In this document: positions 1-44,724 of the stretch, piece by piece
Layout of the letters: the number at the start of each line of letters is the position of its first letter
Numbering within the stretch: position 1 is the first letter of the stretch
NCBI GenBank assembly: GCA_015490455.1
Contig: WFXU01000003.1
Span: 1-58,991 of the forward strand
Origin: Hyphomicrobiales bacterium
GTDB taxonomy: Bacteria; Pseudomonadota; Alphaproteobacteria; Rhizobiales; Devosiaceae
Direction of reading: 5' to 3'
DNA: 58,991 bases
Notes under the pieces: model-generated
What the model was told of the DNA's origin: nothing
What the model saw: only the letters and a program-made list of their open reading frames with translations
The model's database searches: none
Made by a program: the position numbers and the translations under genes

Positions 1-80
1 AGGGCGAGAGTGAAACGAAAGTAAGGATGATAGGGAACGAGGACGATAGTATGGCAAACCCAAAAGGGAGAAGGTAGGAG

Positions 81-222
81 TTAGAAATCGGAAATGGCAA
101 AAATATCCATCAAAATTGCAAGAAAACTACATATGGAGAGGTAAAATCTTGCAATATTAAATGCCCGATAAGAGAAAAATATCAAGAAATATCAAAATAT
201 TAAAATTCTTTACGGAGGACTA
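81..222. repeat. Dispersed intergenic repeat, copy A
   Basis: This stretch matches 43600-43757 over its whole length, with small indels and substitutions. Shared blocks include AATATCCAT, CAAGAAAACTACA, AAAATCTTGCAATATTAAAT and AATATCAAGAAATATCAA. It contains a perfect 9-bp inverted repeat, ATTGCAAGA at 115-123 and TCTTGCAAT at 147-155, separated by 23 nt. It lies just past the 3' end of a minus-strand gene, as does copy B, and shows no reading frame. I do not recognise the family. It could be a small non-autonomous element (REP or MITE-like) or a repeated RNA-level structure. The repeat itself is directly visible; its nature is not. Confidence 0.8.
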
Positions 223-261: not shown

Positions 262-3153
262 CTAATTACTGTTTTTCTTGGAATATTGAGCTTTGAGCTT
301 GGCAGAAAATTCGCCTGCATTTAGAGCTTTACCGAAAAAATATCCCTGAGCATATTTACATCCAAGTTTCGTAATTCTGTTAAGCTCTTCTTTATTTTCA
401 ATAGCTTCGGCAATAACATCCATATTTAAGTCATTAGCCAAAGAGATTATTGATTTTATTATTGGGATTTGTGTTTTTATAAGATCTTCATCCTTATTTA
501 TTTGAATAAAGGGAGCGGGTATTTTGATAGTATCAAAAGGAAAGCGGTGCAAATAAGCCAATGATGAATAGCCCGTTCCAAAATCATCAAGCGCTAAGCC
601 AAATCCCATAGATTTTAATTCGGCTAATATATATGAGGAATGTTCGGCATTGGTCATAAGTTGTGATTCGGTAATTTCTAGCTTTAGGCGGCCTATTATT
701 GAGGAATATTGTGCAATCATTGATTTTATTGAAGAAAGCATATTTTCATTGGCCAATTGACGGGGTGAGAGATTTACCGAAACAAAGAACTTATTATCTA
801 AGGGAAATATTTCATTCCATTTTTCTATTTGAATAGCAGATAATTCAAGCGCCAATTTACCTAATTTTTCAATTTGTCCACTATGTTCTGCCAGTGGAAT
901 AAATTCGCTTGGTAATAATTCGCCCTTCTGCGGATGTTGCCAGCGTAATAGCGCTTCGGCGCCAATTATTTTGTTGGTAATAATATTCATTATAGGTTGA
1001 AAACGCACGCTAAACTCATTGTTTAACCAGCCCCTAGACAGCTCTTCTTCACTGATTGTTGAATAAGATTTTATTGAACGGGCTGAAGCTCTATAGGCTT
1101 CAATTCTGTTGCCCCCATTTCGTTTCGCATGCAACATTGCTAATTCCGCATCGGCCAAAATTTGTTTTGCATTAGCATCGCTATTATCAAAAATAGTAAT
1201 ACCAATAGATACGGTTAAGGAGATATCTTTTTGCCCAAAATTAAATTTCAAATTCATGGCTTTACGGATTTGTTCGGCGATTTTAGCAATATTTGCAGCC
1301 GTTTTTTTGTTCGTTAAAATAATAGCAAATTGATCCCCATTAATCCGGGCGACACTATCAAGCGGGCTCAATAGGCGGGCTATGCGTCGCGAAGTTGCTA
1401 ATAGGACGGAATCGGAAGCATTTAGGCCTATTTTTTCATCAAGGCTAGAAAAATTATCAATATCAACAAATAGCACAGCCGGCTTTGCTCCGCTTCCCTC
1501 TCGTGAGCGAATTAAGGCTTGCTCTAGCCTATCAAGAAATAATTCCCGATTGGGTAAGCCAGTAAGGCTGTCATAAATGGAATCGTGCAATAAACGTTCT
1601 CTTTGCGCTATTTCATGTGAAATATCCCGTAAAGTGCCAACAATACGAACAACCTGCCCATCACCACTTAATACGGGTTTGACTCGCATTTGAAAGGTGC
1701 GATAGGATTTATCATTATGGGCTAATCTTAGATGGGTGTTTATTTTGCCGCGCCTTAATTCTATTAATGTATCAAGGGCAGTCCTAAAGCGATTTTTATC
1801 TTCGGGGTGGATTTTATCCAGCCAACGTTTAATTGAACCTTGTAATTCGCCTAATTTGGTGCCCAGTCTTGTTGCTAATTCATCTGAAACTACCACTTTA
1901 TCGCGATCTATGTTCCAGTCAAATATAAAGTCTCCGGAGCTGGTAATAGCAAGGGCGCGCCTTTCAATTTCAGATATGCTGCCAATTGAGACCTGCCCCT
2001 CAGAAAAAGCATGCTGAATGGCGGTAAAGCCGATAAGCATAACAATCAGCACCAGCCCTCCGGCTACGGCCGGTTGGGCAATATCATTTGAAACCTGCCC
2101 GCTAACAACCAAATAAGCATAAAATAGCCAAGCTAAATAAACAATCCATGTTGGAAATAATAAAACAGCCCTATCATATCCGCGAATTGCAAGAATTATT
2201 ATTAGTAATAGGCCTATTATTCCGACAAATAAAAGGGCAAAACGTGAGATGGTTGCGGCGATAGTGGGTTCAAAAAATGCTGTAACAAATAGGGCTATAA
2301 AGATTGCTAACAGGGCTATTGCCAAATGGATAAAACGTAAATGCCAGCGATGTAAATTTAGATAAACAAATAAAAATCCAAATAATGTTGTGGCAAGACC
2401 CGCTTCAGCAGCTGCCCGAAATGTTTGCATTGAGCCATTGCTCACTCCCAATAAACGCCCCATAATGCCAAAATCTATCAGCAAATAGGCCAGCACCACC
2501 CATGCAAATATAGCAGTAGCCGGGAATATGCCCCGCCCCTTAACGACAAACATAATAGATAAAAATACCGCCGCAAGCCCCGCAATTCCAAGCACAGTGC
2601 CACGAAATAGGGTGAAAGAGTTTACATAATTACGATAGGCATCAGCCTTCCATAAATAAAGATCGGGCAATTTTTCAGCAGATAATTCGGCAATATAAGT
2701 AACCCTTGCTCCGGGATCTATTGTTATAGAAAAAACATCGGCTTCATAGTCGGTAATTCTTTTGGGGCGCAGCCCATGACTGGCGGTAAGAAAATTAATC
2801 CTCTTTGCTCCCAAATCAGGATTTATAATTGAGGAATTAGCAAGAGAAAAAAATGGCGCAACCAAAAGACGTTCAATTTGCACATCACTATTATTTTCTA
2901 GCGCGAATAAAGCCCATTTAGGGTTAGTATTTTCATCTACCGCTAATACTTCAATATTTCTGATAATCCCATCTTCACTAGCGGCGGTTGTAAGTTGCAC
3001 TCGTCCCTCCTTGCCATCAACAATATCCACCGCCTCGCTTATATTAATAGCATTAATCGAATCGGGCACCTGAATAACTTCAAAAGCAATAGAAGCGATA
3101 ATGCTACTAAAGAAAAAAAACAGGAAAAAGATAAGATTTTTTAATTTGTTCAT
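262..3153 (-). CDS. Membrane-anchored GGDEF-EAL protein, probable cyclic-di-GMP phosphodiesterase
   Basis: The 963-residue protein starts with a signal-like hydrophobic segment, followed by an extracytoplasmic region of about 160 residues. A block of about seven membrane helices spans roughly 185-385. A PAS-like domain lies at about 395-520, GGDEF at about 528-690 and EAL at about 705-950. The diguanylate cyclase signature reads NGDQF (about 605-609) instead of GGDEF, so cyclase activity is probably lost. The EAL domain keeps GAEALLRW, NLSPRQL, LEITES, DDFGTGYSS, IAEAIE and YAQGYFF, which fits an active phosphodiesterase. The usual KID motif reads KIP, with the lysine retained. By analogy it would degrade cyclic-di-GMP at the inner membrane, with the GGDEF domain perhaps sensing GTP. 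The start is ATG at 3153. It stands alone, with no neighbouring cyclic-di-GMP effector. Confidence 0.85.
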   Translation of the reverse strand: MNKLKNLIFFLFFFFSSIIASIAFEVIQVPDSINAINISEAVDIVDGKEGRVQLTTAASEDGIIRNIEVLAVDENTNPKWALFALENNSDVQIERLLVAPFFSLANSSIINPDLGAKRINFLTASHGLRPKRITDYEADVFSITIDPGARVTYIAELSAEKLPDLYLWKADAYRNYVNSFTLFRGTVLGIAGLAAVFLSIMFVVKGRGIFPATAIFAWVVLAYLLIDFGIMGRLLGVSNGSMQTFRAAAEAGLATTLFGFLFVYLNLHRWHLRFIHLAIALLAIFIALFVTAFFEPTIAATISRFALLFVGIIGLLLIIILAIRGYDRAVLLFPTWIVYLAWLFYAYLVVSGQVSNDIAQPAVAGGLVLIVMLIGFTAIQHAFSEGQVSIGSISEIERRALAITSSGDFIFDWNIDRDKVVVSDELATRLGTKLGELQGSIKRWLDKIHPEDKNRFRTALDTLIELRRGKINTHLRLAHNDKSYRTFQMRVKPVLSGDGQVVRIVGTLRDISHEIAQRERLLHDSIYDSLTGLPNRELFLDRLEQALIRSREGSGAKPAVLFVDIDNFSSLDEKIGLNASDSVLLATSRRIARLLSPLDSVARINGDQFAIILTNKKTAANIAKIAEQIRKAMNLKFNFGQKDISLTVSIGITIFDNSDANAKQILADAELAMLHAKRNGGNRIEAYRASARSIKSYSTISEEELSRGWLNNEFSVRFQPIMNIITNKIIGAEALLRWQHPQKGELLPSEFIPLAEHSGQIEKLGKLALELSAIQIEKWNEIFPLDNKFFVSVNLSPRQLANENMLSSIKSMIAQYSSIIGRLKLEITESQLMTNAEHSSYILAELKSMGFGLALDDFGTGYSSLAYLHRFPFDTIKIPAPFIQINKDEDLIKTQIPIIKSIISLANDLNMDVIAEAIENKEELNRITKLGCKYAQGYFFGKALNAGEFSAKLKAQYSKKNSN

Positions 3154-42843: not shown

Positions 42844-43489
42844 GAAAAAAAACTATCCCTTAAATCCCGATTTGGATTGTAATATTTGCCCACGACTAAA
42901 AATATTTCGTGATGAAAATAAACAAAAATATCCATCATTTTTTAATGGCCCAGTGCCGGTTTGGGGTGATAAAAGAGCAAAATTAATCATTATTGGTTTA
43001 GCTCCGGGATTAAAGGGGGCTAATCGGACCGGCAGACCTTTTACCGGCGATTATGCGGGAGATTTATTATTTCAAACTCTTGCTAAAGCTAATATGACCA
43101 AAGGTGAATATAAGGCAAAAATTGATGATGGGCTTGAATTAATTGATGTAATGATTGTTAATGCGGTTCGCTGTGTGCCACCGCAAAATAAACCAAATGG
43201 AGCAGAGATAAATAATTGTCGCCCCTTTTTATTATCGGCTCTGAGAAAATTTCAACAAGCTACGACTTTTTTGGCGCTTGGTCTTGTCGCACATAATAGT
43301 TTTTTATCGGCTATTGGTGCAAAGAAATCTGCCTATAAATTTGCTCACGGTGCAAGACATATTTTGGAAAATGGCTATACTTTATTTAATTCCTATCATT
43401 GCTCCCGTTATAATACTAATACTAATCGTTTGAGTGAGAAAATGTTCGAGGAGGTTGTTTTTGCCGCTGCTAAACAGGCCCGCGCATAA
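42836..43489 (+). CDS. Uracil-DNA glycosylase, family 5 type
   Basis: The protein of about 217 residues matches UDGb-type enzymes. It has cysteines for an iron-sulfur cluster (CNICPRL near the N-terminus, then RCVPPQNKP and YHCSRYNT). The family 5 active-site motif GLAPGLKGANRTGRPFTGDYAG is spread over about 22 positions. The final motif YHCSRYNTNTNRL replaces the HPSP-type motif of family 4. It removes uracil and possibly other deaminated bases from DNA. I chose ATG at 42836, overlapping the NYN gene by 8 nt; the upstream frame to 42791 lies inside that gene. Confidence 0.88.
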   Translation: MNRKKNYPLNPDLDCNICPRLKIFRDENKQKYPSFFNGPVPVWGDKRAKLIIIGLAPGLKGANRTGRPFTGDYAGDLLFQTLAKANMTKGEYKAKIDDGLELIDVMIVNAVRCVPPQNKPNGAEINNCRPFLLSALRKFQQATTFLALGLVAHNSFLSAIGAKKSAYKFAHGARHILENGYTLFNSYHCSRYNTNTNRLSEKMFEEVVFAAAKQARA

Positions 43490-43599
43490 TTTATCTAGCA
43501 TAAGATTTAGGGGGCAGGGGTAGGGGCAAGGGATAGAAGAAAATAATTATAAGATTGGGTCAGTAATTTATGAGTTAGTTGGCCGTGCAGATTTATCAC

Positions 43600-43757
43600 T
43601 CAGAAGTCGGAAATCAGAAATCAGAAGTCAGAAAAATATCCATAGCAAAATTGCAAGAAAACTACACATGAGAAGCAAAATCTTGCAATATTAAATGCTC
43701 AAAAAGGGCAAAATATCAAGAAATATCAATGTGATAAGAATTCTTCATGGGGGACTT
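43600..43757. repeat. Dispersed intergenic repeat, copy B
   Basis: This is the partner of the repeat at 81-222. It shares the same block order and the perfect inverted repeat ATTGCAAGA (43650-43658) and TCTTGCAAT (43681-43689), with a 22-nt loop. Compared with copy A it has an extra short tandem stretch at its left end, with repeated CAGAAGTC and CAGAAATC units at 43601-43632. The surrounding 333-nt gap (43490-43822) holds nothing else I can identify. Like copy A it lies just after the 3' end of a minus-strand gene. Confidence 0.8.
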
Positions 43758-43822
43758 ATTAAGGGGTTTGACTGCGGCACAGTCTCAGCTAATTCTAGTT
43801 CGGCCAATATTCCTTTCAGAGA

Positions 43823-44626
43823 TCAGCGGACAAGATCCAGCCTTATGCCAGTTCCTCTAACGGGCGGATATTCGTCACTTGGCAAATAATAATGATTTTT
43901 ATATTCGCTTTGCTGAATAATTTGCACTAATGGAATTTTATTTTCTCTTTGTGCCACTAAATCATAAAAGCTAACTGGATAAAGATGTTCAAAATCAGAA
44001 TTTTGCCCATTAGAATTTTGTTTTCTCGCTTTGTTATTTGCTTTCTTATTTGAATGAGCAATTTTTATATTGCTATTACGCTCTATTGGAGGCATTGGAA
44101 TTGGCGCTTTTTGCACCATTGATTCAATTATTTCCTCGCCAGAACTATTCTCTAAACTTGCATATTCATCAATAAAATTTTCTATAAGAGGAGGTATGTT
44201 AGAATTTTCATTCTCCGGCAAACTAATTGTTTCTAGAGAAGATTGAATAAGATCCGGCGTTAATGTCTTCTCTTTTTGCTTATAATTATTGGCAATAATT
44301 TGCCTATTAGGAATATAAAATTGAGCTAAAGCCGCATCACCCACAATTCTTATATTATTCTTTCTTATAATATTGCTATTTTGCTCTAATTCCTTGTTTT
44401 TTTCGGAGATCAAAATATTGCGCTTTTCAGTTTGTGTTTCTTTTATGTTAATATTGGGCGGTCCATAAATTTGCTCCCTTTGGGAGGGAACATTATTTGT
44501 TAAATTTGTAAAATATTTTTGCTTATCTTCTAAGTGTGTTAGCGAATTTTTTTCAGCGCTTGGATTAAGTAAAACTAATAATGAAATAATCCCCAAAATT
44601 GATAAGACAGTATATTTTTTGTTCAT
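43823..44626 (-). CDS. Unrecognised membrane-anchored or exported protein
   Basis: I do not recognise this 267-residue protein. It starts with MNKKYTVLSILGIISLLVL, a single hydrophobic segment that could be a signal peptide or an anchor. The rest is rich in asparagine, glutamate, lysine and isoleucine, with proline-rich stretches (about 185-200 reads PIPMPPIERN), and looks largely unstructured. The last 50 residues are more ordered-looking and end YYLPSDEYPPVRGTGIRLDLVR spread across 22 positions, so this part may be the functional tail. I chose ATG at 44626, with GAGGAAG upstream; an ATG 18 codons earlier is less likely. It stands between metF and the repeat, in its own region. Confidence 0.55.
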   Translation of the reverse strand: MNKKYTVLSILGIISLLVLLNPSAEKNSLTHLEDKQKYFTNLTNNVPSQREQIYGPPNINIKETQTEKRNILISEKNKELEQNSNIIRKNNIRIVGDAALAQFYIPNRQIIANNYKQKEKTLTPDLIQSSLETISLPENENSNIPPLIENFIDEYASLENSSGEEIIESMVQKAPIPMPPIERNSNIKIAHSNKKANNKARKQNSNGQNSDFEHLYPVSFYDLVAQRENKIPLVQIIQQSEYKNHYYLPSDEYPPVRGTGIRLDLVR

Positions 44627-44724
44627 AATAGTCTTCCTCTCTGCCCCCGCTATAGCCTTGCTCATGGTTGCATGTAGCAAAAGAAATATTTTGGAAGAAT
44701 AATGGATTTTATATGAACCTGATA

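Follow-up and report, generated by a model that had tools for sequence, protein, structure and literature searches.

The repeat found twice in the window, the 58,991-nucleotide stretch of a Hyphomicrobiales contig analysed here, very probably belongs to a MITE family of one alphaproteobacterial lineage that was derived from an IS5-family insertion sequence. This attribution draws on the directly observed copies and their ends, on target duplications in the parent family, on a decayed transposase in the same genome and on the absence of the element from congeners. The initial annotation had described the stretches 81-222 and 43600-43757 as a two-copy repeat, and their existence and mutual alignment were borne out: a DNA search of the own genome matched copy 2 to copy 1 at E 4e-34, a likeness beyond chance. 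Also as annotated, the two share the stem ATTGCAAGA...TCTTGCAAT, with a loop of 23 nt in copy 1 and 22 nt in copy 2, and a downstream AATATCAAGAAATATCAA block; no ORF of at least 80 aa overlaps either of them, and minus-strand genes end 39 bases (262-3153) and 65 bases (43823-44680) beyond the respective stretches. The product of the gene adjoining copy 1 is a PAS-GGDEF-EAL protein. The extent first given to the repeat was too short (Table 1), and its copies in the genome number dozens rather than two. The likeness of copy 1 to other copies extends to position 1, which is the contig edge, and while a copy on contig C67 is 96% identical to it over window positions 1-222, another on C71 is 94% identical over 1-224.

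Table 1. Features of the two MITE copies in the window; the strand given for copy 2 is the reading direction of the lost transposase gene.
Feature	Position	Strand	Basis or remark
MITE copy 1, longer variant	1-220	-	Right end beyond the contig edge, outside the window
Left terminal inverted repeat of copy 1 (GTCCTCCGTAAAGAATTT)	203-220	-	Terminal-pattern search
Subterminal inverted half-site pair of copy 1	115-155	-	Offset 66 from the left end, from coordinates
Complete MITE copy 2	43578-43755	-	Paired terminal inverted repeats; profile match 43755-43625, E 1.8e-33
Left terminal inverted repeat of copy 2 (GTCCCCCATGAAGAATTC)	43738-43755	-	Sequence and end pairing
Right terminal inverted repeat of copy 2 (GTTGGCCGTGCAGATTTA)	43578-43595	+	Terminal-pattern search and end pairing
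Subterminal inverted half-site pair of copy 2	43650-43689	-	TTGCAAG starts 67 nt from the left end, from coordinates
Four tandem heptamers within copy 2, AGAAGTC GGAAATC AGAAATC AGAAGTC	43602-43629	+	Read from sequence

A genome-wide search of the kind that the initial annotation proposed found many copies. The own genome (G000; 2,015,493 bases in 81 contigs) contains at least 41 DNA matches to copy 1 (40 of 135 candidates scored), one of them a 32-base piece beside another match, and this number rules out a recent two-copy duplication. The exact stem pattern occurred at 15 places, with none for the reversed-pattern control, and, when 3 or fewer mismatches were allowed, the terminal pattern TAGTCSKYCGTGAAGAWTTT occurred at 139 sites versus 5 for its reversed counterpart; 58 distinct profile matches were present in the retrieved genome stretches. 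Several copies, including copy 1, lie at contig edges, as expected because repeats break assemblies. The annotation had named a lack of further copies and of stem conservation in relatives as evidence against its proposal; further copies exist and the stem is conserved in relatives, although the congeners lack the element.

Complete copies carry terminal inverted repeats GTC..CCGTGAAGA. An alignment of 30 copies showed a conserved block of about 130 bp, followed by a variable purine-rich part and, at the far end of some copies, the second terminal repeat. The variable part often consists of heptamers such as AGAAGTC or GGAAATC, with similar arrays in many copies; AGAAGTC, GGAAATC and AGAAATC units vary in number (copy 2 of the window, L010, L019, L026 and others), and GGGYAA-type hexamers follow them in some. 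Pairing of ends in selected loci gave 23 candidate elements. Counting TA at each end, 16 of them measure 158-217 bp and the other 7 measure 329-865 bp. The family is thus short, multicopy, bounded by terminal inverted repeats and free of a coding frame over the two window copies. The annotation had noted identical stems with differing loops and flanks: among 45 longer copies the stem arms reach a mean column identity of 94% and 96%, well above the loop (81%) and only slightly above the remaining element (88-93%). Three loci (L024, L028 and L030) have an apparent deletion of about 10-11 bp, roughly one helical turn, between the left end and the half-sites of the stem. At three others (L004 on C38, L022 on C57 and L031 on C1), another repeated palindrome around GCCGTACCGTACGGTACGGTTCGGC lies beside or inside longer MITE variants, which suggests nested repeat families.

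The parent was traced by its left end. Of the 397 genomes of the order, five (G000, G029, G060, G100 and G190) matched a search pattern combining left end and stem, GTGAAGAA-N-TTGCAAG-N-CTTGCAAT. The same left end runs into a transposase gene in G029, G060 and G100; no transposase gene was seen next to the match in G190. The G100 and G060 proteins matched NCBIfam NF033578 transpos_IS5_1 with 507 bits (4e-152) and 508 bits (3e-152) against a cut-off of 275, and PF05598 and PF01609 also scored above cut-off in the parent transposases. The complete element in G060 measures 1514 bp and has TTCCTA on both flanks. Copies in G029 break contigs; of their 19 left and 10 right flanks, 8 of the 10 right flanks found a partner at k=6 (0.046 expected) and none did at 4, 5 or 7-10 bases. 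The target duplication of the parent type is exactly 6 bp. An IS5-type DDE transposase, terminal inverted repeats and a duplication of fixed length are therefore all present in the parent element, and autonomous relatives with ends matching those of the MITE exist as IS5-family elements in G029, G060 and G100 and as a decayed copy in the own genome.

Target duplications of the MITE copies themselves are mostly decayed. The flanks of 21 copies were compared, 2 of the 23 end pairs being left out for poor ends, and 6-mers agreed at 0.587 versus 0.499 by chance (p 0.007, uncorrected over ten lengths). Length 6 gave the highest agreement relative to chance among lengths 2-11, with 2 exact pairs and 5 agreeing at five of six positions; copy 2 of the window, flanked by GAGTTA and TTATTA, agrees at only 3 of 6. 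Since 3-mers were also raised (p 0.03; 4 exact versus 0.86 expected), the duplication in the MITE copies is suggestive only. Many copies, terminal inverted repeats, these decayed duplications and a matching autonomous IS5-family element together support the MITE-like reading, one of those first offered for the repeat.

The own genome holds 28 transposase pieces, none of full length, the longest with 10 stops, and its assembly contains no intact helper element. Several pieces lie at contig ends, where an intact copy may be hidden by the assembly. A fossil insertion sequence on contig C13 still shows, in order, a left terminal repeat, an inserted stretch, the right half-site, the leader and an N-terminal frame. 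Similar C-terminal transposase pieces end at the edges of contigs C7, C17, C27, C33 and C34 and may reflect a more diverged, collapsed IS5 relative, possibly still active. In four congeners there was no DNA match to the element and no transposase match at E 0.001, and the 2-3 terminal-pattern sites in each did not exceed their controls. At the uracil-DNA glycosylase locus beside copy 2, blastn found no element at three congener loci; this is not a clean empty site, because the downstream neighbours of the congeners also differ. Downstream of that gene in congener G001 (L259), tandem copies of a CCCTCCCCGCAAGGGGGAGGG-type repeat occupy the corresponding gene end.

The decayed transposase of the own genome and the absence of the element from congeners point to an invasion specific to this lineage, in which the invader was cut down to a MITE that spread before its helper decayed. 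The invader would have been an IS5-family insertion sequence (NCBIfam transpos_IS5_1; ISRsp18-like) that multiplied after entry, and an internal deletion would have left about 130 bp of the left end, the tandem heptamer stretch and the right terminal repeat. Presumably, the IS5 transposase then acted in trans to place copies of this short form in AT-rich targets of 6 bp, and the transposase genes would have decayed afterwards.

Judged from sequence comparison, the stem is inherited from the insertion sequence. Relatives were taken from the best 80 of 275 confirmed transposase stretches, in named genomes; 4 of these 80 loci lacked a usable upstream stretch and 11 a recognisable left end, leaving 65, of which 51 were non-redundant. 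These are mostly alphaproteobacterial, with others titled Pseudomonadales, Nitrospirales, Actinomycetota and Planctomycetota, some of which are metagenome bins whose assignment may be wrong. Across the 51, a TTGCARG/CYTGCAA pair of half-sites is found about 67 bp inside the left end and spans 38-39 bp, and imperfect inverted repeats near +58 to +76 reach at least 9 of 12 arm matches in 43 of them, versus about 4% of shuffles. The exact degenerate pair, a pattern derived from the same sequences on which it was scored, occurred in 42 of 51 versus none in 100 rounds of single-base shuffles. Pair counts cover 49 sequences (L222 was not placed and L258 has a misplaced end): the first half-site starts at offset 67 in 41, 68 in 5, 69 in 2 and 79 in 1, where ties were broken towards 67 in this count and not in the exact-pattern count, and the span is 39 bp in 31 and 38 bp in 18. 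Elsewhere, the left half-site pattern occurs at scattered positions only. Information content among the 41 ends with offset 67 is high at 1-18 (the terminal repeat), at a TGA at 28-30, at 68-74 and at 100-108. Both window copies keep the pair, at offset 67 in copy 2 and 66 in copy 1.

What the stem does was weighed as a choice between a DNA site and an RNA hairpin. The initial annotation had proposed that the structure is maintained, and this stands for a deeply conserved inverted half-site pair; covariation of base pairs was not demonstrated once relatedness was allowed for. In 49 sequences, 82.5% of cells of the 12 pairs were paired versus 72.9% after shuffling (0 of 500), and covariation was 0.337 versus 0.195 in shuffles and at most 0.213 in slid controls. 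Pairs with two-sided changes were not raised (8 versus 7.5 in shuffles; 222 of 500). On a transposase tree of 48 of the 49 sequences, the seven core pairs underwent no joint change versus 1.3 expected, and the stem extension underwent 14 versus 9.2 expected, 6 of them compensatory versus 1-5 in shifted controls. Covariation as proof of RNA, for which the alignment test looked strong, thus gained no support from the tree-aware count. Mismatches of the G-T type (48) and A-C type (38) were nearly equal, which gives no strong sign of one RNA strand.

This outcome of the tree-aware count favours a protein-binding DNA site over an RNA hairpin, and the stem probably represents two half-sites in double-stranded DNA, a candidate protein-binding site. 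The main alternative, less probable and still a serious one, is that the stem works mainly as RNA, forming a hairpin in the 5' mRNA leader of the transposase gene that limits synthesis of the protein or read-through, and was merely passed on to the MITE. Its position between the left end and the transposase start would fit such a role, as would pairing above shuffles and slid controls, including the well-paired extension beyond the core; a fixed distance from the end would likewise be expected of a leader hairpin close to a fixed promoter. Three relatives (L185, L220 and L243) form strong hairpins with z about -5, and the stem also forms in each of the two MITE copies when their transposase strand is folded (z -3.0 and -4.5); however, two of the five relatives folded fail, L179 not forming the stem and L206 doing no better than shuffles. 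Core pairs that never change jointly, extension changes hardly above the controls and the near-equal mismatch classes also speak against a hairpin, as does the variable distance to the start codon, which for inverted repeats at this offset ranges from 43 to 122 nt. Rfam gave 3 matches at E of at most 1 for 8 loci, all below gathering scores; a hairpin in a Sinorhizobium/Ensifer IS5 element (L185, 1368-1435) resembled mir-9457 at 36 bits versus a gathering score of 90, which was judged a chance likeness of two long hairpins.

As a cis-acting site in double-stranded DNA, the left-end half-sites would be bound by the transposase or a host protein, and the pair would be kept because transposition or its control needs it. 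More broadly, we see about even chances that transpos_IS5_1 members have a one-sided, undescribed cis-acting site made of two inverted 7-bp half-sites at about +67 and +106. Conserved across relatives whose assignments cover several phyla and still present in the derived MITE, this site would serve the transposase or a host factor either as a marker of the left end or as a means of linking transposase expression with transposition. The textbook description of IS5 ends is one of terminal repeats. Neither the half-site pair nor this MITE was found described in the open-access literature covered, and as most subscription papers and ISfinder fall outside that scope, its silence on the pair is weak evidence of novelty.

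Placement of the copies in the genome is biased. Between convergent genes lie 24 of 31 copies when ORFs of at least 80 aa are counted, 22 of 28 at 120 aa and 20 of 26 at 160 aa; at the 80-aa rule, the others are 4 and 3 between tandem genes, with none between divergent ones. Genes were called by a simple ORF rule, and the counts omit 5, 1 and 1 ORF-overlapping copies as well as those at contig edges. Of the 45 junctions in the window, 5 are convergent, and convergent ones make up 18% of intergenic bases, which gives p 8e-13, or 1e-9 against an assumed 25%; the pooled baseline is biased low because junctions next to copies are included. It is conceivable on these grounds, and on balance unlikely, that the copies serve as bidirectional terminators of transcription or as buffers between convergent genes, or are retained in such a role. 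Against this stand the simple ORF rule behind the gene calls and a survival bias, which explains the same placement since insertions in promoters or operons would be removed; selection against harmful insertions is the simplest reason for it. A consensus scan of 43480-43830, the one copy scanned, contained no terminator-like site, and together with the lack of an Rfam match above gathering score at the 8 loci this left unsupported the repeated RNA 3'-end structure that had been among the first proposals, and the reading was rejected. Copies may have a terminator-like side effect, given their location mostly at gene 3' ends.

REP and ERIC elements are intergenic repeated inverted repeats that are not known to have IS5-type ends. 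A REP/ERIC-like or other host-maintained repeat without an insertion-sequence parent, which would share the intergenic position, the copy number and the inverted repeat and of which the REP form had been suggested initially, is highly improbable, as the element is longer than that and derived from a known insertion-sequence family, its left 130 bp match the left-end organisation of the IS5 family including the 67-nt offset, it is absent from four congeners, and the matching ends in our reading refute it.

A MITE derived from an IS5-family element is in itself an ordinary kind of element, and the fixed geometry of its half-site pair may be useful to specialists. If a second site exists on one side in a precise position, its part in insertion-sequence recognition or regulation could be tested, and the MITE offers a natural minimal substrate. 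From the bias towards convergent genes one can also see where, in a compact genome, elements of this kind persist.

With the IS5 family the element shares the left terminal repeat, the subterminal half-site pair and, as its decayed flanks suggest, a duplication of 6 bp; unlike that family it is a MITE without a transposase gene. PLSDB-annotated relatives of NF033578 transpos_IS5_1 include ISRsp18, ISRm12, IS1478, ISXca5 and ISPna3. In a Sinorhizobium copy of the ISRsp18 family the two half-sites lie at offsets 67 and 106, an ISRm12-family copy yielded the left half-site alone (one mismatch allowed), and no left end was found by the search pattern in an ISPna3-family copy. A parallel is BrickBuilt of Porphyromonas gingivalis, described in the text covered as a non-coding, intergenic MITE of 19 copies with IS5-type terminal repeats and an internal tandem repeat (PMC4596501); that part of the text does not mention a subterminal half-site pair. 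Judged from the same part, the present family is likewise non-coding, intergenic and multicopy, with IS5-type ends and an internal tandem repeat, and it differs from BrickBuilt in its ends, in its unrelated host and in tandem units of 7 nt rather than 23 nt.
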